64,000 bases of DNA from Clostridiaceae bacterium (GTDB taxonomy: Bacteria; Bacillota; Clostridia; DSM-8532), in the NCBI GenBank assembly GCA_012840245.1, contig DULR01000034.1, positions 1 to 64,000 on the forward strand, in the 5' to 3' direction. The notes under the pieces were generated by a model that was not told the origin of the DNA, did no database searches, and saw only the letters and a list, made by a program, of their open reading frames with translations. Position numbers and translations under genes: made by a program. Positions 2,816 through 63,205 of this stretch are shown one piece after another; positions within the stretch are counted from its first letter, which is position 1, and every line of letters begins with the position of its first letter.

Positions 2816-3067
2816 ATGAAAAAGAGTGAGGAAAAGAAAGATATAACTTATGAACAGGCCGCAGCCGAACTTGAGAGCGTGGTGGAGCTTCTGGAAAACG
2901 GAGAGCTGACACTCGAAGATTCCATCAGAATGTTTGAAAGAGGAATAGAACTGGTGCGTTTTTGCAATAAAAAGCTTGATGAGATCGAAAAAAGGATAAC
3001 TATCCTTATTGAAGGAAAGGATGGGATGACAGAAAAGGATTTTCATCCCGAAGATATGACGATATGA
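2816..3067 (+). CDS. xseB: Exodeoxyribonuclease VII small subunit
   Basis: 83 aa. The frame is open from TTG 2798, but AAGGGGAG at 2801-2808 points to ATG 2816. The helical core (TYEQAAAELESVVELLENGEL, then LEDSIRMFERGIELVRFCNKKL) is the full XseB family signature. It binds the coiled coil of XseA. Its stop overlaps the start of ispA by ATGA, so the two genes are likely translationally coupled. Confidence 0.96.
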   Translation: MKKSEEKKDITYEQAAAELESVVELLENGELTLEDSIRMFERGIELVRFCNKKLDEIEKRITILIEGKDGMTEKDFHPEDMTI

Positions 3068-3951
3068 GTTTCAGTGCCTTATACAAAGATTATCAGGAGA
3101 TCGTTGAAAACTGGCTTGATTCTGTGATATCAAAGCACCTGTTCCAGAGATCCGGTATCCATGAGGCAATGGAATACAGCCTTATGGCAGGAGGCAAGAG
3201 AATAAGGCCGGTGCTGTCGGTCGCAGTATGCGATATGCTCAAAGGTGACAGGTCTTTGATCATGCCCTATGCAACTGCTCTTGAACTGATCCACACATAT
3301 TCGCTGATCCATGATGATCTTCCCTGCATGGACAATGATGATTTCAGGCGGGGCAAGCCCACCAACCATAAAGTTTTCGGGGAAGCAATGGCAGTCCTTG
3401 CCGGTGATGGATTGCTTAACCTTGCATATGAGATCATGCTTGCCGATTTGACGAATGAAAAGAACAACGGGCTTAAAAAAGCGCAAACAGCCCGATTGAT
3501 CGCAGAAGCAGCCGGTATCTCAGGTATGATAGCCGGTCAGGTAATGGATATGGAATCCGAAAACAGGGACATATCGTATGAAGAGCTTTGTACCATGCAT
3601 AAAAATAAAACGGGAGCATTGATAAGGGCAGCTGTCCTTGCGCCTGCCATACTGCTGGATGCAAGCGAGGAGATCCGTACGAATTTGGAGGTATATGCCG
3701 AAAATATCGGGCTTGCTTTTCAGATCAAGGATGATATCCTCGACCATGAAGGCTCTGTGGAAATTACAGGGAAATCGGTGGGGAGCGACGAAAAGAACAA
3801 TAAGGCTACTTTTGTGAGCAAGCTGGGTATGGATAAAGCCAAAGAGTTGTTGAAGTCAGCTGTCGAAAAAGCTGTGGAAGCCTTAAAATCCATCGGGAAC
3901 AATGACTTCCTTGTCAAAATGGCAGTTTTTATTGCCCAGAGGAATAAATAG
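3064..3951 (+). CDS. ispA: Farnesyl diphosphate synthase (polyprenyl synthetase)
   Basis: 295 aa. It condenses DMAPP/GPP with IPP. The first aspartate-rich motif DDLPCMD is at residues 84-90 with RR following, and the second motif DDILD is at 223-227. A tyrosine lies five residues before the first motif (Tyr79), the position that limits chain length to C15 in Bacillus-type FPP synthases, so farnesyl-PP is the expected product. The gene overlaps xseB and is linked to dxs downstream, as in many Firmicutes. Confidence 0.95.
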   Translation: MSFSALYKDYQEIVENWLDSVISKHLFQRSGIHEAMEYSLMAGGKRIRPVLSVAVCDMLKGDRSLIMPYATALELIHTYSLIHDDLPCMDNDDFRRGKPTNHKVFGEAMAVLAGDGLLNLAYEIMLADLTNEKNNGLKKAQTARLIAEAAGISGMIAGQVMDMESENRDISYEELCTMHKNKTGALIRAAVLAPAILLDASEEIRTNLEVYAENIGLAFQIKDDILDHEGSVEITGKSVGSDEKNNKATFVSKLGMDKAKELLKSAVEKAVEALKSIGNNDFLVKMAVFIAQRNK

Positions 3952-3983: not shown

Positions 3984-4418
3984 TTGACGTTAAGCAGTAT
4001 TTTCAGCAATAAAGCCATTACTTTGCCCATTCTGTCATGGTTTCTGGCACAGTTCATTAAGTTCATCCTTTGTCTTATCAAGTATAAAAAGCTGGATTTC
4101 AGAAAATTCGTAGCTTCAGGGGGTATGCCCAGCTCCCACAGCGCTATTTCGGTATGTCTGGCTACGGTCATAGGGATCCAATACGGATTCGGTTCGGGTG
4201 AATTCGCAATATCTGCAATCCTTTCGTTTATCGTGATGGCCGATGCCGCGGGTGTAAGGCGCGCGGCAGGCAAACAGGCCGAAGTACTGAACAAGATCAT
4301 TTACCACTCCAAGGAAATAAGAATGGATCAGGAGCTAAAGGTACTGCTCGGGCATACCCCGATACAAGTGTTGGCAGGAGCGCTTCTGGGCATTCTGGTA
4401 GGAACCGTATTTGCATAA
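3984..4418 (+). CDS. Divergent PAP2 family protein (YuiD-like, DUF212)
   Basis: 144 aa. It starts at TTG 3984 behind GGGAGGAAAG. Hydrophobic segments flank SGGMPSSHS (about residues 46-54), and DAAGVRRAAGKQA (about 87-99) and LLGHTPIQV (about 121-129) follow. These are the phosphatase-like motifs of the YuiD family, which is related to acid phosphatases and vanadium haloperoxidases. A membrane phosphatase acting on isoprenoid or lipid phosphates would fit next to ispA, but this is inference. The end of the gene overlaps the -35 box of the following RNA gene. Confidence 0.85.
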   Translation: MTLSSIFSNKAITLPILSWFLAQFIKFILCLIKYKKLDFRKFVASGGMPSSHSAISVCLATVIGIQYGFGSGEFAISAILSFIVMADAAGVRRAAGKQAEVLNKIIYHSKEIRMDQELKVLLGHTPIQVLAGALLGILVGTVFA

Positions 4419-4439
4419 CCTGAAATTTTGATGTATAAT
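4411..4439 (+). promoter_or_regulatory. Sigma-A-type promoter for the OLE RNA
   Basis: TTGCAT at 4411-4416 and a perfect TATAAT at 4434-4439 are separated by exactly 17 bases. The -35 box overlaps the last codon and the stop of the preceding gene. Transcription should start near 4446, giving the long RNA its own promoter in addition to read-through from the ispA operon. Confidence 0.7.
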
Positions 4440-4445
4440 ACTATT

Positions 4446-5063
4446 CCATGATAAAAGTCATCGGGATGGCGCAGTATCCTAGTCAGTACTGCCTGCTTCG
4501 AAGACGGGCCTAAAAATCCGTTAAAGGGCACATCGATGAAGTTCCTTGTGCCGGCTTGTTACGCCCAGTGATGGGCTGGTGCTGGGAGTTAAGGTTTAGG
4601 GGCAGCCTGCAATGGCATGCAGGAGATGACCCCTTTACCGCGGAGACCTTCAATCGTGGGAGACAGATTGCCCCGCGCGAGCGCTAAAAATCTTGACTAC
4701 GATGAAGGATGAACCTGTCATGCGGTATCGCTTTTTCGGTGCTGTGGACAGTGTAGCCTGCCTTGAGTGTTGTTGGAGGGATAATGGATCACGTGTTTAT
4801 GTACTGGCCGGTACATAAACAATATTGCCGTTTGAAACCAACAGTGCAAAAGAGGCTAGAAGCGGGTACAGGCTCTCGGGGAAAACCCCTAGGCTGTTTG
4901 TATAAGGCAATCTGGGGATTGCAGTGTGGACTAAGTGGTGATCAGGCTTTGAAAAGGGCAACCTTTCAACGCCGAAGTTAAAGGGAAACCACCGGGACGG
5001 CGACGTTCCGGCATTCGACGGGGAAAACCTGCCTGACCTAAGCCGCAAAATTTACTCAGATTG
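4446..5063 (+). ncRNA. ole: OLE RNA (Ornate Large Extremophilic RNA)
   Basis: About 620 nt without a convincing gene, placed between the ispA-yuiD end and a membrane-protein gene followed by dxs, which is the established neighbourhood of OLE RNA. It is rich in stems: a perfect 10-bp stem GTTTATGTAC/GTACATAAAC at 4795-4820, a nested hairpin GGGG...CCTGC/GCAGG...CCCC at 4599-4633, GGGGAAAACCCC at about 4879-4890, GCAATC/GATTGC around 4907-4922 and TTGAAAAGG/CCTTTCAA at about 4948-4970. Known OLE RNAs are about 600 nt, abundant, membrane-bound through OapA, and needed in Halalkalibacterium halodurans for tolerance of cold, short-chain alcohols and Mg2+ stress. Their biochemical action is unresolved. 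The identification rests on length, synteny and structure; the 3' end is approximate. Confidence 0.88.
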
Positions 5064-5139
5064 CTGCCATCCTACTGATCATATCTTACATAATATACTT
5101 GACCAAAAAATTATTAGTTTTGGGAAAGCAGGTTCATAC

Positions 5140-5796
5140 TTGGAACAGGAAAAATCGGAAAAAAAGTTTATAAGACTTTTTGACAGATACAGGGAACTTG
5201 CCAATGTCAGCGTTCCCGTCAAAAAAAGCTCCGGAATTGAGAAAAAACATATTTTCTGGGGTTTTCTTATTACTATCGTTTCTTTTACATTATCAATACT
5301 TATTCTTTTTGCATCGACGAGCATATTCAAGGCTATCCCGCCTGGTTTTGCTTTTTTTGTGGTTCTGGGCATCATACTGATAGGAGTTGCTTTTGACGCG
5401 GTGGGTACCGCTGTTACAGCTGCAGATGAGACTCCATTTCACTCCATGGCATCCAAAAAAATGCGCGGAGCGAAGCAGTCCATCATGCTTTTAAGAAATT
5501 CTCCGAAGGTATCCAGCTTTTGCAACGACGTTGTAGGAGATATATGCAGTGTTGTAAGCGGTGCAGCCGGAACAGCTATAGTATACCGGTTGTTTACCGG
5601 AGATCCGAATATTTCGTTTATCGAGCCGGTCTGCGGTGCTTTAATCGCAGCAATGACGGTGGGCGGCAAAGCATTTGCTAAAAATCTGGGTATCAACAAT
5701 GCAAATTATATCGTTTATAAGGTTGGCAGATTGCTTTCCCTTTTTTCACGCCGCAAACAAGGGAAAAAATGCAAAAAGGGCAAGCATACAGGCTGA
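5140..5796 (+). CDS. oapA: OLE-associated membrane protein OapA
   Basis: 218 aa, starting at TTG 5140 with only a weak AAAGCAGG site. Hydrophobic segments lie at about residues 40-60 and 68-88, with further weaker ones at 140-180. Between them is the family's conserved polar region FDAVGTAV..ADETPFHSMASKKMRGAK (about 89-116). OapA binds OLE RNA and anchors it to the membrane. The ADETPFHSMA..K pattern recalls the DUF21 membrane domain of CorC/CNNM Mg2+ proteins; that resemblance is my reading. The gene follows the RNA by about 80 bases without a clear terminator, so the two are probably co-transcribed. Confidence 0.88.
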   Translation: MEQEKSEKKFIRLFDRYRELANVSVPVKKSSGIEKKHIFWGFLITIVSFTLSILILFASTSIFKAIPPGFAFFVVLGIILIGVAFDAVGTAVTAADETPFHSMASKKMRGAKQSIMLLRNSPKVSSFCNDVVGDICSVVSGAAGTAIVYRLFTGDPNISFIEPVCGALIAAMTVGGKAFAKNLGINNANYIVYKVGRLLSLFSRRKQGKKCKKGKHTG

Positions 5797-5802
5797 TTTG
5801 GG

Positions 5803-7698
5803 GTGTATCAAGATTTGAAGAAGATAGATGGAACATATGGTTATCTTTCCAAAGTTAACAGTCCGGCCGATCTGAAAAAGCTGAGCTACGAAGAGCTGGG
5901 CATTCTGGCCGAGGAAATCCGGCTGTTTTTATTGGATTCGGTTTCGAAAACCGGCGGACATATCGCCTCCAATCTGGGAGTGGTCGAGCTTACAATAGCG
6001 CTTCACAGGGTACTGAATGCCCCTGTGGACAAAATCATATGGGATGTGGGGCATCAGACATATGTCCATAAAATACTTACAGGCAGAAAAGCTTTATTTG
6101 ACACTCTTAGAAAGCTCGACGGTCTGTCGGGCTTCCCGAAAACTCAGGAAAGCTCCTATGACGCATTCAACACAGGACACAGCAGCACCTCTGTTTCCGC
6201 CGCTCTGGGAATGGCCAGAGCAAGGGATTTGAAGGGGGAGAATTATACAGTCGCCGCAGTGATAGGGGATGGAGCCCTGACCGGTGGGATGGCTCTGGAA
6301 GCCCTCAATGATGCCGGAATGGCACGAACCAACCTGTTGATAATATTGAATGACAATGGAATGTCGATAGCTCCCAATGTGGGGGGATTATCGAGATATC
6401 TGAGCAGGATCAGGGTCAGGCCGTTCTATTACAAGACAAGAGAGTCGATGCAGGCATTTCTCGATCTGTTCCCTAAATCGGGGAAAAGGCTCAGGAGCTT
6501 CCTGCACAAGGTCAAATCGGCAATAAAGAGCATGTTTATGCCGTCCATGTTTTTTGAAGATTTAGGATTCCGCTATTTCGGACCTATTGACGGCCATAAC
6601 ATCAGGGAAATGGTACGGGTCCTGGAACAGGCAAGGACAATGAAAGGTCCTGTTCTCGTACATGTGACCACCATTAAGGGAAAAGGTTATAAATATGCCG
6701 AAAAGCAGCCTGCCATGTACCATGGCATTGCGCCTTTCGAAATAGAAACCGGCCAGGTGCTGGCTGAAGGCAGTGAAAACTATTCCAGTGTATTCGGTGA
6801 AAAACTCTGCGAGCTTGCCAGGGATAATGAAAGAATCGTTGCCATAACAGCAGCCATGACAGACGGTACCGGGCTTACCGGGTTCAGGGAGCTTTTCAAA
6901 AAACGCTTTTTTGATGTTGGGATCGCAGAGCAGCATGCGGTGACTCTGGCCGCCGGTCTGGCAATGGGCGGTATAAAGCCGGTAGTGGCGATCTATTCGA
7001 CGTTCCTGCAGCGTGCATATGATCAGATCCTGCATGATGTGGCTCTCCAGAACCTCCCTGTGGTATTTGCCATAGACAGGGCCGGCGTCGTGGGAGATGA
7101 CGGTGAAACCCATCAGGGGATATATGATGTTTCATATCTGTACACAATACCCAATCTGAAGATTTTGTCGCCCGCATCTCCAAATGAGCTTAAAATCATG
7201 CTGGAGTATGCACTGAAAGAATATCACGGCCCCATAGCCATCAGATATCCGAAAGGTTCCGGATGTGAATTTCAGGGTTCGGAAAAACCTTTGGCCTTTG
7301 GCAGGGGAGTATTGCTGCAGAAGGGCAGGGATGTAACCCTGACCGGTGTAGGTTCGATGATGTGCATCGTTCTTGAGGCTGCACGTCTTCTTGAAATGGA
7401 GGGTATTTCCTGCGAGGTCATCAACCCCAGGTTCCTGCGCCCAATTGATGAAGAGTTGATACTTGAATCAGTGAAAAAGACTAAAAGGATAGTTGTTGTT
7501 GAGGATGTCATTAAAAGCGGAGGATTCGGCTCCCATGTTGCAGAGCTTGTTTTCAGAAGCCGTACAGGGGCTGATTGTATGGTGCTCAGCCTGCCAGACA
7601 AGGGAATCGAGCATGGCAAAAGGGAATTGATTTACAAGAGGTATGGTATTGATCCTGAAGGAATAAAAACAAGCGTAAAAAGCGAGTGGTTCAGTTAA
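5803..7698 (+). CDS. dxs: 1-deoxy-D-xylulose-5-phosphate synthase
   Basis: 631 aa, full length. This thiamine-diphosphate enzyme makes DXP from pyruvate and glyceraldehyde-3-phosphate, the first step of the MEP isoprenoid pathway. Visible motifs are GHQTYVHKILTGR, the ThDP/Mg2+ motif GDGALTGGMALEALNDAG, the FGPIDGHN block, GIAEQHAVTLAAGLA and DRAGVVGDDGETHQG. GTG 5803 is the frame start; TTG 5815 behind GGGGTG (5800-5805) is an equally good choice. The stop overlaps the tlyA start by one base. Confidence 0.96.
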   Translation: MYQDLKKIDGTYGYLSKVNSPADLKKLSYEELGILAEEIRLFLLDSVSKTGGHIASNLGVVELTIALHRVLNAPVDKIIWDVGHQTYVHKILTGRKALFDTLRKLDGLSGFPKTQESSYDAFNTGHSSTSVSAALGMARARDLKGENYTVAAVIGDGALTGGMALEALNDAGMARTNLLIILNDNGMSIAPNVGGLSRYLSRIRVRPFYYKTRESMQAFLDLFPKSGKRLRSFLHKVKSAIKSMFMPSMFFEDLGFRYFGPIDGHNIREMVRVLEQARTMKGPVLVHVTTIKGKGYKYAEKQPAMYHGIAPFEIETGQVLAEGSENYSSVFGEKLCELARDNERIVAITAAMTDGTGLTGFRELFKKRFFDVGIAEQHAVTLAAGLAMGGIKPVVAIYSTFLQRAYDQILHDVALQNLPVVFAIDRAGVVGDDGETHQGIYDVSYLYTIPNLKILSPASPNELKIMLEYALKEYHGPIAIRYPKGSGCEFQGSEKPLAFGRGVLLQKGRDVTLTGVGSMMCIVLEAARLLEMEGISCEVINPRFLRPIDEELILESVKKTKRIVVVEDVIKSGGFGSHVAELVFRSRTGADCMVLSLPDKGIEHGKRELIYKRYGIDPEGIKTSVKSEWFS

Positions 7699-47144: not shown

Positions 47145-49394
47145 ATGGGTGTAAAAAAAGGGAAAAACGCAGAAGTCAAATTGTTCAGGGTTATACGGAG
47201 CATATCGTTTCAGCGGATAATTGCCCTTTTTCTCACATGGCTTGTACTGTCGGCACTGGTTGCTTATGAGGCAGCTCCCAAAAAGTATAAGCTAAGCATC
47301 GGGGATGTTTCCCAATACGATATCCAGGCTCCCAGGGATATTGAAAACAAGCTCAAAACGCGGCAGAATGCCGAAGATAGAGCATCAAAGCTGGCTCCTG
47401 TGGTGATCGACATCGAGAATGCCAACAGTGACATGCTGAACGGGGCTTATGAGTATTTTGACAGTCTCGAGCAGCTTATATCTGATGTAAGAGACAATAC
47501 CGACAATATAACACTGGAAGAAAAAATCCGGAATTCTGATGCGGAAGGGTTTTTCAATGTTCTTTTTGAGCTGGACAAGCCTGTATTGGAGATACTTTTC
47601 GGCGAACAGGCCAAAGAGAGGATCACTTCTCTCAAGAATACTGTCATAAAAGAGATCATACCTGGAATTACCAGGAAAAAGCTGATGGAAGACAATATTG
47701 CAATTGAAATCGCCGGCGGGATCAATATTATCGGTGAAGGACATGAGCTTGAGTCTTTGAAACCGATAGCCGTCGATGTGCTGCAAAAAGTGATCAAACC
47801 AAACAGCCGGGTCGATGAGGAAGCTACGAATGCTCAGCGGGATTCGTTCATTGAAAGCTATATCAAGGAAAATCCCGTTATAATCTATAAAGATGAAAGA
47901 ATAATCAGCAAGGATGACATAGTCACAGAGGACAAATTCGCGGTATTGAAGGAACTGAATTACATAGACAGCGAAGGCAGACCTGATTATCTGCTTTACA
48001 TTGCCGTGTTCATCATAGTGCTGCTTTTGATCGCGGCATCGGTTATTTATCTCCAGAAGTTCCATTCCAGGATATATTATGACCGGAACTCCATATTCCT
48101 TATTTGTGTATCGATACTGATAACCACGTTGTTTGCCTGGGCCATACGTGAGTTTATACCCGATCTGTCGTATTTTATAATCCCGATTTTCATAGCGCCG
48201 GTCCTTATCGCTATTTTCCTTGGAATAGAGCCTGCCATAGCAGTGAACATACTCCTTACATTCAGCTTTTCGCTGATGGTCGGCGGAAATCTTGAATTTA
48301 TGCTGATATCCATTATTGGGGGCACATTTGCGGCATTTCTCACCGTAAATGCCACACAGCGAAGGAAGATATCCCTGGCCGGGCTTGTCCTGGGCTGCCT
48401 GAATGCAGTGATTATAGCATTGGTAGGGATCATTGAGAAAAAGAGCCTTGAGAACCTGCTCAACGACGGAGGACTGGCATTTATAAACGGCATGCTGTCG
48501 ATCATTCTTGCAATCGGACTTTTGCCTTTCCTTGAAAGCACCTTCAATGTGGTAACACCTCTCAAGCTTCTGGAACTGGCCGATCCTAACCATCCTCTGC
48601 TGAAAAAGCTTCTGATGGAAGCTCCGGGGACATATCATCACAGCCTCATGGTGGGGAATCTGGCAGAAGCGGCTACCAGAGAGATCGGAGGCAATGCCCT
48701 GCTTGCAAGGGTCGGGGCGTATTTCCATGATGTAGGAAAACTCAAACGTCCTCATTTCTTCAAAGAAAACCAGCTTTCTGACAATCCTCATGACAAGCTT
48801 ACTCCCAACTTAAGCACTCTGGTCATTACCTCCCATACGAAAGACGGGGAAGAGCTGGCGATAAAATATCGTCTGCCAAAAATCATTCGTGATATCATAG
48901 CCCAGCATCATGGGAATACTTTGGTTGCATATTTTTATCACAAAGCAAGCCAGACCGAAAAACCTGAAGAACTTAAAGAGGACGATTTCCGTTACGGTGG
49001 CCCGATACCGGATTCCAGAGAGGCGGCGGTTGTGATGCTGGCCGATTCGGTAGAGGCAGCAGTACGCTCGATGCCTGAGAAAACCCCCGGAAAGACAGAA
49101 GGGCTGGTACGCAAAATAATAAAGGACAAGCTTGATGACGGCCAACTGGACCGCTGCGATCTCACACTAAAGGATCTCAGCATAATCGCTGACAGTTTTG
49201 TGCAGGTATTAAGCGGAGTTTATCACGAACGGATCGAGTATCCGGAACTGGAAAAGAAAAACAGCCTGCAGGAGCTTGACAACAGTATTTATAATACGTT
49301 GCCCAAAAACAATAAAACGATCAGGGAGATTTACAATGAAGCTGACAGTGTACAATCGCCAAAAGAGTTCGCCGATTCCCAGAGAAACGATTAA
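47145..49394 (+). CDS. pgpH: PgpH-type 7TM-HD c-di-AMP phosphodiesterase
   Basis: 749 aa, directly after the phoH stop. An N-terminal helix, a large extracytoplasmic 7TMR-HDED domain (about 45-265), seven membrane helices (about 283-465) and a cytoplasmic HD domain with TYHHSLMVGNLAEAA (about 502-516) and AYFHDVGKLKRPHFF (about 531-545). PgpH hydrolyses the essential messenger c-di-AMP. The 3' end overlaps ybeY by 59 bases. Confidence 0.94.
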   Translation: MGVKKGKNAEVKLFRVIRSISFQRIIALFLTWLVLSALVAYEAAPKKYKLSIGDVSQYDIQAPRDIENKLKTRQNAEDRASKLAPVVIDIENANSDMLNGAYEYFDSLEQLISDVRDNTDNITLEEKIRNSDAEGFFNVLFELDKPVLEILFGEQAKERITSLKNTVIKEIIPGITRKKLMEDNIAIEIAGGINIIGEGHELESLKPIAVDVLQKVIKPNSRVDEEATNAQRDSFIESYIKENPVIIYKDERIISKDDIVTEDKFAVLKELNYIDSEGRPDYLLYIAVFIIVLLLIAASVIYLQKFHSRIYYDRNSIFLICVSILITTLFAWAIREFIPDLSYFIIPIFIAPVLIAIFLGIEPAIAVNILLTFSFSLMVGGNLEFMLISIIGGTFAAFLTVNATQRRKISLAGLVLGCLNAVIIALVGIIEKKSLENLLNDGGLAFINGMLSIILAIGLLPFLESTFNVVTPLKLLELADPNHPLLKKLLMEAPGTYHHSLMVGNLAEAATREIGGNALLARVGAYFHDVGKLKRPHFFKENQLSDNPHDKLTPNLSTLVITSHTKDGEELAIKYRLPKIIRDIIAQHHGNTLVAYFYHKASQTEKPEELKEDDFRYGGPIPDSREAAVVMLADSVEAAVRSMPEKTPGKTEGLVRKIIKDKLDDGQLDRCDLTLKDLSIIADSFVQVLSGVYHERIEYPELEKKNSLQELDNSIYNTLPKNNKTIREIYNEADSVQSPKEFADSQRND

Positions 49395-59728: not shown

Positions 59729-59756
59729 CTTTTGATTGTTTTACGGAGGAGCTTTT

Positions 59757-60854
59757 ATGTGGCACGAAAGAGATGGCTGTGAGAGGTTTGATGAGCTTAT
59801 ATCGTTCTATCTTCCCGATAGTATAAAGACAGCCGTCAGAGGAATAAAGAGGGAATATTTGATTGAACTCGAGGAGTTGAGGATAAGGGCCGGACAACCA
59901 TTGATGGGAGTGTTTGCAGGATTCGACCGGTATATCGGCAGGGATGGATTTCTGTCAGACAATCCACAGTTTGGGCTTATCGTTTCACCGAAAGAGGTTG
60001 ACAATCTGTTCATGTTGCTTTGTGAGCATTCTGTATATGCTTATCAGGACGATATCAGCAGAGGCTTTATAACTTTAAAGGGAGGACACAGGGCCGGCAT
60101 ATGCGGAACAGTGATTTATGAAGGAAATAACATCAGGGGAATGAAAGATATTTCTTCTGTCAACATACGATTTTCCAGACAGATAAAAGACTGCGCCAGG
60201 GACGTTTTCGGCCATATCGTGCGAAATAAGCAGGACATTTACAATACGTTGATACTGTCACCGCCCCGCTGCGGGAAAACAACGCTTCTTCGCGACCTTT
60301 GCCGGATGGTAAGCAGCGGTACGGGCACAAGCTTCAAAGGGCTCAGAACTGCTGTGATAGATGAAAGATCAGAACTGGCAGCAAGCTACAGAGGTGTTCC
60401 GCAGAATGATCTGGGGCCAAGAACAGATGTATTGGATGGCTGCCGGAAAAGCGAAGGAATAGAGATCATGCTCAGGGGTATGGCCCCACAGGTCATTGTT
60501 GTCGATGAGCTTGGGGCAACACGTGATCCGGATGCCATAAAAATGGCCTGGAATGCGGGAGTAAGGATAATTGCAACTGCCCACGCGTATGGTCTCGATG
60601 ATTTCAAAAGAAGGCTGGGAATCGGTCAATTAGCGGCAAAAGACGGATTTGAGAGAATAATTCTTCTCGGTATGGACAACGGAAAAAGATGGGTAAGGGT
60701 GATGGATGCCTATGGGAATGAGCTTAGTGGTTTGGTTAAAATTGATCGGCTGTCTGATGGTATTCGCGGGTTGTACGGCATTAGGGATGAAGCTGTCGGC
60801 AAGGCTGGCAGAGAGACAGCGTGCCTTATCAAAACTCATGGAGATCCTGCTTAA
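59757..60854 (+). CDS. spoIIIAA: Stage III sporulation protein AA (ATPase)
   Basis: 365 aa, ATG 59757 with GGAGGAG. Secretion-ATPase-like protein: Walker A SPPRCGKTTLLRDLC (about 172-186) and Walker B VIVVDELGATRD (about 246-257). It powers the SpoIIIA-SpoIIQ channel between mother cell and forespore. The C-terminus is longer than usual; its last 49 codons overlap spoIIIAB in another frame. Confidence 0.95.
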   Translation: MWHERDGCERFDELISFYLPDSIKTAVRGIKREYLIELEELRIRAGQPLMGVFAGFDRYIGRDGFLSDNPQFGLIVSPKEVDNLFMLLCEHSVYAYQDDISRGFITLKGGHRAGICGTVIYEGNNIRGMKDISSVNIRFSRQIKDCARDVFGHIVRNKQDIYNTLILSPPRCGKTTLLRDLCRMVSSGTGTSFKGLRTAVIDERSELAASYRGVPQNDLGPRTDVLDGCRKSEGIEIMLRGMAPQVIVVDELGATRDPDAIKMAWNAGVRIIATAHAYGLDDFKRRLGIGQLAAKDGFERIILLGMDNGKRWVRVMDAYGNELSGLVKIDRLSDGIRGLYGIRDEAVGKAGRETACLIKTHGDPA

Positions 60855-61251
60855 CCTGAAAAATCAAATATGCAGCCTGGGAGTACCCCTATATGCCGCA
60901 TTTGAGGAAATCGGCACTGAGGGAACAGGAGGATTATGGTCGGAGATCTTTCTGAGATGCAGTCAGGTTATGAAGGAACAGCGCATGGATGCAGGCTCGG
61001 CATGGAAGAAGGCTATATCTGAGAACAGAGGGCTATTGCCGCTTGAATCATCAGATTGGGATTCTATAGACGATTTTGGAGAGCTATTGGGCAAATCGGA
61101 CAGATATAACCAGGAAGCGGTATTGGACATGGCAAGAGAAAGCATTGCGGTTCTTGAAAAGAAAGCCGAGGAGGCTGTCAGAACAAAAGGCAAGCTATAC
61201 AGGAACCTGGGAGCACTATGCGGAGCGGCAGTTGTGATTCTGTTAATATGA
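60706..61251 (+). CDS. spoIIIAB: Stage III sporulation protein AB
   Basis: 181 aa from ATG 60706; ATG 60712, ATG 60718 and GTG 60727 are alternatives close to the family start at VVWLKLIGCLMVFAGCTALG. N-terminal helix, long helical middle (LNLKNQICSLGVPLYAAFEEI), C-terminal helix. It resembles type II secretion GspF. It overlaps spoIIIAA by up to 149 bases, far more than usual. Confidence 0.92.
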   Translation: MPMGMSLVVWLKLIGCLMVFAGCTALGMKLSARLAERQRALSKLMEILLNLKNQICSLGVPLYAAFEEIGTEGTGGLWSEIFLRCSQVMKEQRMDAGSAWKKAISENRGLLPLESSDWDSIDDFGELLGKSDRYNQEAVLDMARESIAVLEKKAEEAVRTKGKLYRNLGALCGAAVVILLI

Positions 61252-61327
61252 AATGACGTAATAACAACATTCTGTAATGTCAGGCTGTTTGCTGAATGAA
61301 TTATGTTGCCGGAAGGAGAAGAAGCAC

Positions 61328-61352
61328 ACAGAGGAACCGTCCCCCTGTGTTC
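61328..61352. repeat. ACACAG...CTGTGT REP-like palindrome
   Basis: ACACAGAGGAACCGTCCCCC followed by TGTGT: imperfect hairpin ACACAG/CTGTGT with GG/CC next to a central GGAACCGTCC. Related sequences (ACACAGGGGGACGGTTC...) are dispersed in many Firmicutes genomes. It lies in the 118-base gap between spoIIIAB and spoIIIAC, inside the operon. A decayed copy may be at 2754-2780. Confidence 0.55.
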
Positions 61353-61369
61353 TTGGAGAGGATACGGGT

Positions 61370-61564
61370 ATGAATGTGGATTTGATTTTTAAAATAGCGG
61401 CAATCGGTATTTTAGTATCCATTCTGAACATCGTGCTTACTAAATCAGGCAGGGAAGAGATGGCAATGATGACTACACTGGCAGGAGTCGTAGTGGTCCT
61501 GCTGATGGTGGCAAAGGAAATCGTTAACCTGTTTGACACCGTCAAAGCATTATTTGGGTTTTAA
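61370..61564 (+). CDS. spoIIIAC: Stage III sporulation protein AC
   Basis: 64 aa. The frame opens at 61277, but TTGGAGAGG in front of ATG 61370 and the usual length of about 65 aa set the start. Two membrane helices (about 3-22 and 30-52) with the NIVLTKSGREEMA loop. Part of the mother-cell channel, paired with SpoIIIAD. Confidence 0.94.
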   Translation: MNVDLIFKIAAIGILVSILNIVLTKSGREEMAMMTTLAGVVVVLLMVAKEIVNLFDTVKALFGF

Positions 61565-61576
61565 GGGTCAATAAAG

Positions 61577-61966
61577 ATGGAAGCAGAACTTGTCAGGATC
61601 GCCGCAATCGGGATCATAGCCGCTATTTTGGCAGTGATAATATCAGAAAAAAGGCCTGAACTGGGGCTGCTGCTCGGACTTGCTTTCGGCTGCATCGCCC
61701 TGATGATCGCTTTCAGCAAGGCTGGTGCAATAGTCATGGTTCTGGAGGATACGGTGAATAAAGCGGGGATCGACGGACAACTGCTGGTCCCGGTACTCAA
61801 GGTCACCGGCATGGCATATATAACACAGTTTTCCGTTGATGCCTGCAAGGATGTAGGACAAAACTCCATAGCAGGAAAAGTGGAAACAGTAGGGAAAATA
61901 ATGATGCTTGTGGTTTCAGTGCCTATAGCGACATCATTGATAAAAATAATCTCTTCAATAATTTGA
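61577..61966 (+). CDS. spoIIIAD: Stage III sporulation protein AD
   Basis: 129 aa, ATG 61577, weak AAGGG site. Four membrane helices; IRIAAIGIIAAILAVIISEKRPE-like start and the GMAYITQFSVDACKDVGQ block (about 76-93) are typical. 12 bases after spoIIIAC. Confidence 0.94.
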   Translation: MEAELVRIAAIGIIAAILAVIISEKRPELGLLLGLAFGCIALMIAFSKAGAIVMVLEDTVNKAGIDGQLLVPVLKVTGMAYITQFSVDACKDVGQNSIAGKVETVGKIMMLVVSVPIATSLIKIISSII

Positions 61967-62014
61967 GCTGTAAACAATTGCTGATGCACACAAGAGAGAG
62001 GGTGTATATACATA

Positions 62015-63205
62015 ATGGCTTATGACTTCAGGAAAATGATCGTATTCATATCTGTTATCCTGGCTGTGCTTTTCTCTCCTGCGACCGGGTGTCAGGCCTA
62101 TGGAGAAGATGAACCAGGGATAAATACTGAAATTATTGAAGAGAAACTTAAAAGCAGCGAGATCAGATCGATAAGGGAAGCAGTGGACAAAGAGATCAAT
62201 AAGACACCCATCATAAAAGAATATGATTTCAATTCACAGGATATTTTGGAGGGAGCTCTTAAAGGCAGACCTATGGAAAGCCTCAAAGGCCTTCCCAAAA
62301 TACTTGCCGGGGTTCTGGGCAAAGAAATAAAGGCGAATTTGATCCTTATACTTCAGTTGTTTGCCGTGATGCTTCTGGGCGCTGTGATCCGCTCACTGCA
62401 GCCTTTGAACAACGGTATAACCAATGAGGTAGCGAAGCTGGGAGTCAATGGTGTGCTTATAGTCATTTCTGCTGTCAGCTTCGGAAGCGTTGTGGATATA
62501 GCCAGAACTACAATAGAATCAATGCAGTCCATTGCATCACTGGCTATGCCCGCTTTGTTCGCTCTTATGGCAGCCTCAGGCAGGATCGTATCTGTAACTG
62601 CCATACAGCCGCTGATGCTTTTTGGAGTGAACGTAGCGTGCCATCTGTTCAAAATGGTGCTTTTGCCCCTGGCGGTCATGGCTGGCCTGCTTTTTCTGGT
62701 GGACAGTGTTTCTGAACGCTTCAAGGTCAAGACTCTGGCAAATCTTTTAAAGAGCGGTGCCGTATGGATAACAGGGGTTATTACGTTTGTGTTTTCCCTT
62801 ATAGTTTCCATACAGAGAATCGCAAGCTCCTCGGTAGACGCGGTAACTCTGAAAACGACCAAATTTGCCATAGGTACCTTCGTTCCCGTAGCCGGAAAAT
62901 ATATGGCTGATGCCGCCGACACTATACTTATGTGCACGTCGGCTGCAGGCAATATTGCCGGAATTTTGACGGTGACAGGCCTCATCGTAGTATCTGTGAT
63001 ACCATTCATCAAAGTCTTTATTATCATGATCTCGTTCCGGCTGGCAGCTTCCTTTGGTGCTCCCGTATGCGATGAAAATGTCTGTGAAGCGCTGGAAGAA
63101 GCAGCAGGATGTCTTTCGGTGATTCTGGGAATAATGGGGGCGTCACTTTTTACAGTCATTTTACTGGCAGGAGCACTGATGAATGCAGGCGGTGTCCTGA
63201 GATAG
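62015..63205 (+). CDS. spoIIIAE: Stage III sporulation protein AE
   Basis: 396 aa, ATG 62015 with GAGAGGG. Signal-type helix (about 9-28), an outer region, then seven or eight membrane helices (about 105-395). SpoIIIAE is the largest membrane part of the channel and has permease-like character. GNIAGILTVTGLIVVSVIPFIK and the AAGCLSVILGIMGASLF blocks support the family. Confidence 0.94.
   Translation: MAYDFRKMIVFISVILAVLFSPATGCQAYGEDEPGINTEIIEEKLKSSEIRSIREAVDKEINKTPIIKEYDFNSQDILEGALKGRPMESLKGLPKILAGVLGKEIKANLILILQLFAVMLLGAVIRSLQPLNNGITNEVAKLGVNGVLIVISAVSFGSVVDIARTTIESMQSIASLAMPALFALMAASGRIVSVTAIQPLMLFGVNVACHLFKMVLLPLAVMAGLLFLVDSVSERFKVKTLANLLKSGAVWITGVITFVFSLIVSIQRIASSSVDAVTLKTTKFAIGTFVPVAGKYMADAADTILMCTSAAGNIAGILTVTGLIVVSVIPFIKVFIIMISFRLAASFGAPVCDENVCEALEEAAGCLSVILGIMGASLFTVILLAGALMNAGGVLR

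Follow-up and report, generated by a model that had tools for sequence, protein, structure and literature searches.

Few bacterial RNAs of unsolved function are as large as OLE, which is membrane-bound. In Halalkalibacterium the RNA binds the protein OapA at P2 and P4a and goes to the membrane, and cells depend on it when stressed by Mg2+, alcohol, cold or a poor carbon source. The OLE RNAs of Halalkalibacterium halodurans, Clostridium acetobutylicum and C. botulinum (Rfam family RF01071) lie in operons of the order ispA–OLE–oapA–dxs, and the same order is displayed by the window, the whole stretch of 64,000 nucleotides analysed here. On its + strand nusB (from 1080), xseA (from 1553) and xseB (from 2798) precede ispA (3064–3951), and yuiD (DUF212; 3984–4418) is placed between ispA and OLE; oapA (5140–5796) follows the RNA and leads into dxs (5803–7698) and tlyA (from 7686). 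This is the gene order of the published OLE neighbourhood. The window RNA shares the P4, P5.1, P6.1, P9 and P13 loops with the RF01071 RNAs and its genome likewise has OapB and OapC homologues, although the RNA carries about 20 nt extra in P7 and lacks the CCUCC mimic in P6, two features that are common among its relatives. The locus is a complete and ordinary example of OLE, with nothing new in kind; it adds one to the known examples, from a genome that has no ordinary CNNM exporter.

The original prediction, made from the letters of the window, placed an OLE RNA between ispA-yuiD and a membrane-protein gene followed by dxs, and staked this identity on a covariance-model search. The Rfam scan confirms it, together with the gene order: RF01071 matches the + strand at 4450–5086 with 534.4 bits and an E-value of 6.6e-154, where the gathering score of the family is 50 bits, and this is the sole hit in the window for all 4227 Rfam families. 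The match spans model positions 1–616 of 616 and is untruncated; published work takes 390 bits, on a model of its own, as the cut for a 'full-length' OLE (PMC11332333). The predicted interval, 4440–5070, located the RNA correctly and fell short by about 15 nt at the 3′ end, including most of the 3′ strand of P1 (5066–5074). OLE is present as a single copy in the genome (assembly of 2.9 Mb in 108 contigs, estimated completeness 99.99%). The interval contains no noteworthy open reading frame among those of the window, its folding energy lies below that of all 20 dinucleotide shuffles (z −6.2), and oapA begins directly downstream, 53 nt past the end of the match.

An alignment of 77 OLE RNAs, comprising the window RNA and 76 others, has a mean identity of 62% (lowest 47%) and holds more than 100 invariant or near-invariant positions across these diverse sequences. 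RNAalifold, run without a supplied structure, predicts 170 pairs, and in 124 of these both partners have changed in one sequence or more; it recovers P1, P2 and P3, all of which are unpaired in the Rfam model. The 28 pairs of P1–P3 are formed in 93% of the alignment cells, against 79% with shuffled partners and 34–46% when the strands are slid, and double changes occupy 403 cells, against 142 and 41–76 respectively. Helices P1–P3 are backed by covariation, and together with the 3′ domain they make up the ornate structure of the RNA. The 5′ strand of P1 (4462–4470) pairs with 5066–5074, with both-side changes in 8 of the 9 pairs over the 77 sequences. P2, formed by 4471–4482 and 4889–4897, is one of the two published OapA-binding regions (PMC12265935); 99.7–100% of its cells are paired and 3 of its 9 pairs change on both sides. 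In P3/P3.1 (4483–4502 with 4858–4877) all 10 modelled pairs do so.

The interval could be read instead as nothing more than a long spacer or leader ahead of oapA-dxs whose stems arose by chance, a reading favoured by the lack of a + strand terminator-like site separating OLE from oapA. The strength of the covariance-model match and the double changes in 124 of 170 predicted pairs across 77 species refute it, leaving it hardly any credence. That 4450–5086 is a full-length OLE RNA accompanied by OapA is practically certain.

The hairpins enclosed by these helices carry the sequences expected of OLE. P4 (4503–4522) presents an A-rich loop, CUAAAAA at 4510, whose UAAAAA is found in 77 of 77 RNAs and is a published dimer contact. 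P5/P5.1 (4542–4588) exposes the kissing loop GCCCA at 4563–4567 (conserved in 75 of 77), and its counterpart AAUGGCA at 4611 is located in P6/P6.1 (4593–4640), the region of the published bS21 site. The long hairpin P9 (4757–4857) ends in a self-complementary GGCC loop (UGGCC at 4805), a further published dimer contact. The published dimer-contact sequences of P4, P5.1/P6.1 and P9 are thus all present, at 4510, 4563, 4611 and 4805, and the RNA may dimerise. The P13 region (4983–5030) displays the loop GGCGAC at 4999, the published OapB site, of the form GGnnAC in all 77 sequences. A GC-rich insert of about 20 nt relative to the Rfam consensus is seen at 4671–4690 in P7, the most length-variable helix of the alignment (21–109 nt). 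Elsewhere in the alignment the OLE RNAs of Marininema, Caldanaerobacter and Marinithermofilum (L081, L083 and L088) have a shortened P9 without the GGCC kissing loop, so that these RNAs can do without one of the four published dimer contacts.

A likely promoter for OLE, TTTGCA–18 nt–TATAAT, lies at 4410–4439 of the + strand and agrees with the consensus at 10 of 12 positions; transcription would be expected to start near 4446. Promoter-like sites are no commoner in this consensus scan than in shuffled sequence, and the window site taken alone is at chance level. Across 76 OLE loci, TATAAT/TTGACA pairs matching at least 9 of 12 positions occur 5–20 nt upstream of P1 in 48, against 5, 9 and 5 in three control windows further upstream. 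The −10 element of the window ends 22 nt before P1, just outside the 5–20 nt bin and inside the cluster of exact TATAAT elements. The sigma-A-like promoter and the clustering of such sites at other OLE loci lend indirect support to the RNA being made. As the + strand shows no terminator-like site from OLE to oapA, the RNA and the oapA message probably begin as one transcript and the 3′ end of OLE is probably made by processing, which has been reported for the Halalkalibacterium RNA (PMC11332333).

A family-by-family search of the genome of the window covered homologues of OapB, OapC and bS21; the original prediction expected the first two to be encoded away from the locus. Both are found: OapB is a 90-aa protein encoded between map and infA (L137 2695–2967; E 6.8e-10 against the solved OapB 7k9b), and OapC is an 81-aa protein encoded directly upstream of rpsL-rpsG (L132 1495–1740; E 5e-15 against YbxF). 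A paralogue beside nusA (L131) is YlxQ and was rejected as OapC. The bS21 homologue is also present (E 3.5e-23), and the known OLE particle can thus be complete in this organism. Judged by the P13 loop at 4999 and the two homologues, the genome appears equipped for OapB and OapC.

The oapA gene (5140–5796) encodes 218 aa from a TTG start with an AGG 10 nt upstream. Its assignment, likewise predicted, holds: in an alignment its identity to 68 other OapAs, almost all of them encoded beside OLE, is 36–87%. Invariant positions among the 69 include D86, G89, D130 and D134 of the DxxxD motif, S140-G141, G175-G176-K177 and K181. In common with known OapAs it displays D86, G89, the DxxxD at 130–134, PFHSMA, the GGK at 175–177, adjacency to OLE and, in the model, four long hydrophobic helices; it differs from them in the TTG start and is otherwise ordinary. 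The AlphaFold2 model (pLDDT 84.8) superposes best on CNNM proteins, with Z-scores of 11.9 and 11.1 for MtCorB (7m1t and 7m1u) and 10.3 for the CorC membrane domain (7cfg), and the five best Foldseek hits are all CNNM proteins, none of them under E 0.001. A Z-score of 10–12 for a helical bundle can arise from a common arrangement of helices, and the fluoride channels (Fluc, Z about 8.5), the next-best fold after CNNM, were read in that way and set aside. The OapA profile matches eight CNNM-CBS exporters of related genomes over 136 columns (E 9e-8, probability 94%). OapA alone reaches 22.5 bits against Pfam CNNM, under the cut-off of 28.4, and alone it retrieves nothing in a sequence search of the PDB, so that the profile and fold comparisons were required. 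OapA is predicted to adopt a CNNM-like membrane fold of the CorB/CorC Mg2+ transporter type without CBS domains. In contrast to the CNNM/CorB/CorC/MpfA exporters, with which it shares the predicted fold and the profile match, it possesses the DxxxD motif and one more membrane helix (PMC11332333), and it ends at 218 aa with neither the CBS pair nor the CorC_HlyC domain that follow the membrane domain in CNNM-CBS exporters; CNNM, CBS and CorC_HlyC are all present in the two exporters, out of the eight, that were checked. A relation of OapA to MpfA/CorB has already been published (PMC11332333).

Apart from OapA the genome of the window yields no CNNM match, and it contains no CNNM-CBS Mg2+ exporter. 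The distribution of the two was surveyed in 293 genomes of the class that are at least 90% complete, 123 with OLE and 170 without, counting as an exporter any CNNM match with an E-value below 1e-15. An exporter is present in 161 of the 170 OLE-negative genomes and in 61 of the 123 OLE-positive ones (Fisher p 1.4e-19, shared ancestry being ignored). As read from the tables, the 62 genomes with OLE and no exporter are spread over about 33 families and the pattern thus does not come from one clade, ancestry lying outside the count. This anticorrelation repeats the published one with MpfA, to which it adds that genomes with neither OLE nor exporter are rare (9 of 293). The exchange is not strict, since half of the OLE-positive genomes also have an exporter. 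One complete genome that is a single contig of 3.0 Mb (G020; family f1, genus g2) has no OLE, and the three other sampled members of g2 are OLE-positive. All four carry a CNNM-CBS exporter, and this shared possession suggests that in g2 the exporter came first and then allowed OLE to be lost in G020.

According to the published account OLE and OapA 'might never appear independently' (PMC11332333). In genus g13 (family f7; genomes of 0.8–1.2 Mb), all six sampled species carry an OapA homologue, here termed OapA2, at one fixed site (loci L141–L146 in G259, G180, G074, G037, G271 and G121). Its neighbour is proS in five species and a polA-like gene in G271, and in every case the L20 leader and the infC-rpmI-rplT operon adjoin it. 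G074 and G271 additionally possess an OLE RNA (357 and 351 bits) with a second, adjacent OapA; in the other four species the search that detects these two returns no OLE up to E 10. Those four account for four of the nine surveyed genomes that have neither OLE nor exporter. The OapA2 proteins group together in a single clade (support 100/97) whose closest relatives are the OLE-linked OapAs of g13 (sister relation, 99/96), and the two therefore arose through duplication within OapA. With dN/dS of about 0.07–0.14 between five of the proteins, in the comparisons where dS is unsaturated, OapA2 appears to be under purifying selection.

W40, S52, S59, D86, D130, G133, D134, S140, G141, K177 and K181 are retained in all six OapA2 proteins and G89 in five. 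P99, M103, A104 and G176 are missing from all six; these residues are conserved in 93–99% of OLE-linked OapAs and are kept by both OLE-linked OapAs of g13. N129 and G175 are not informative, because they have changed in both OapA groups of the genus. Three of the lost residues belong to PFHSMA (residues 99–104, codons at 5434–5451), a candidate OLE-contact loop that is near-universal in OLE-linked OapAs. In the model, loop 97–110 is a short helix that links two long ones; its richness in lysine and arginine and its alignment with the segment that follows the first long CNNM-exporter helix suggest a cytosolic position. P99, M103, A104 and G176 are therefore put forward as candidate RNA-interface residues. 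That OapA can exist without OLE, the g13 proteins having shed the PFHSMA loop and G176 while retaining what is presumed to be the transport core, seems to us an evenly poised proposition. If it holds, OapA would be a membrane protein in its own right over which OLE gained control, and the lost residues would be the RNA interface. No mention of an OLE-free OapA paralogue was found in the literature within reach of the search, subscription papers lying largely beyond it, and OapA2 is apparently new. It constitutes the main gain of the analysis, although outside the window, and offers a new route to what OLE is for: this natural case separates the residues of the membrane function from those probably serving the RNA, and in doing so it makes testable whether OLE regulates a metal transporter.

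Other candidates for an OapA without OLE were discarded. In G017 the OLE is cut by the contig end, and L032, L034, L035, L047, L064 and others had been missed by the anchor search, their OLE being found by the model scan. The N runs in an 'enlarged' OLE (765 nt) and oapA of G010 are scaffold gaps and not inserted elements. At the level of the locus, an oapA with no OLE directly upstream is also seen at L106 4758–5513, L091 1274–1858 and L080 433–1086, the first and last followed by dxs; L080 offers only about 430 nt of upstream sequence. Close relatives of these loci, L103/L111 and L086, do have OLE.

The reading that accounts best for these observations, and that we hold to be on balance probable, is a full-length OLE with its OapA in which the RNA gates a CNNM-type protein; the gating mechanism itself stands at about even odds. 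OapA would provide a divalent-ion transport domain of CNNM type that lacks the cytosolic CBS and CorC domains by which ordinary Mg2+ exporters are controlled. A dimer of OLE would dock on its cytosolic side in place of those domains and serve as both sensor and gate, while OapB and OapC would keep the RNA folded. Were OLE to substitute for the exporter control domains in this way, an organism would need either an ordinary exporter or OLE with OapA. The OLE–exporter anticorrelation, the exporter carried by the OLE-negative G020 and by its three OLE-positive relatives, the predicted CNNM fold and the retention of the core with loss of the interface in OapA2 favour such gating; OapA2 in particular, a half-size CNNM protein persisting after the RNA and the presumed contact residues are gone, fits the idea but is not proof of transport, which in OapA is an inferred activity. 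Counted against it are the exporters present in half of the OLE-positive genomes, the ancestry-blind Fisher test, the Pfam score below cut-off and Z-scores of a size that a common helical arrangement can give. Moreover, the published OLE phenotypes include secretion and carbon source and so extend beyond Mg2+. In its general form, that OLE may act like CBS and CorC domains, the idea has been published (PMC11332333).

A different role has been given to P3, which is proposed as a membrane-spanning helix (PMC12265935): OLE would be an integral membrane RNA whose P3/P3.1 crosses the bilayer beside OapA, the two RNA domains on opposite sides relaying stress signals (Lyon and Breaker 2025). By published estimate a bilayer span needs about 14 bp, and P3 plus P3.1 is given as 12 bp (PMC12265935). 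In the alignment the 5′ strand of P3 is 20 nt long in 69 of 77 species and the 3′ strand 19–20 nt in 70 of 77, the sequence is among the most variable of OLE with pairing kept through compensatory change, and the best duplex averages 13.5 bp against 9.9 bp for strands mixed across species, all in agreement with a transmembrane helix. However, strand length is equally constant in P1, P4, P5.1 and the P11 strand, and for that reason P3 was rejected as a membrane ruler and its length is not counted as transmembrane evidence. Nothing in the sequence points to a lipid-facing surface, we know of no precedent for a charged RNA helix in lipid, and we regard the transmembrane reading as unlikely.

Still less probable, in our estimation, is that OLE works as a ribozyme and signals stress through the product of its reaction; no OLE reaction is known to us. 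Its size, its more than 100 invariant or near-invariant positions and a structural complexity on a par with that of known ribozymes speak for it (an argument of PMC11332333), but the dimer contacts and protein sites seen by cryo-EM also explain such conservation (PMC12286853, PMC12265935). We give yet less weight, as quite improbable, to a main role in capturing bS21 through an anti-Shine-Dalgarno duplex mimic in P6 and thereby tuning translation. Binding of bS21 and the mimic have been reported for Halalkalibacterium OLE (PMC12054373), and the window genome has the bS21 gene and a well-conserved P6. Against this, the matching place in the window RNA is ACCCCUUU, which is usual among its relatives and offers only CCCCUUU at 4630 in place of CCUCC, and single P6 mutants of Halalkalibacterium with weakened bS21 binding grew like the wild type (PMC12054373).

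Further genes of the window were recognised by eye. At 59736–63205 spoIIIAA-like and spoIIIAE-like genes are present. Co-occurrence with OLE has been reported for sporulation genes. A 749-aa PgpH-like protein is encoded at 47145–49394 after a phoH-like gene, and the c-di-AMP phosphodiesterase PgpH has likewise been reported to accompany OLE (PMC11332333).
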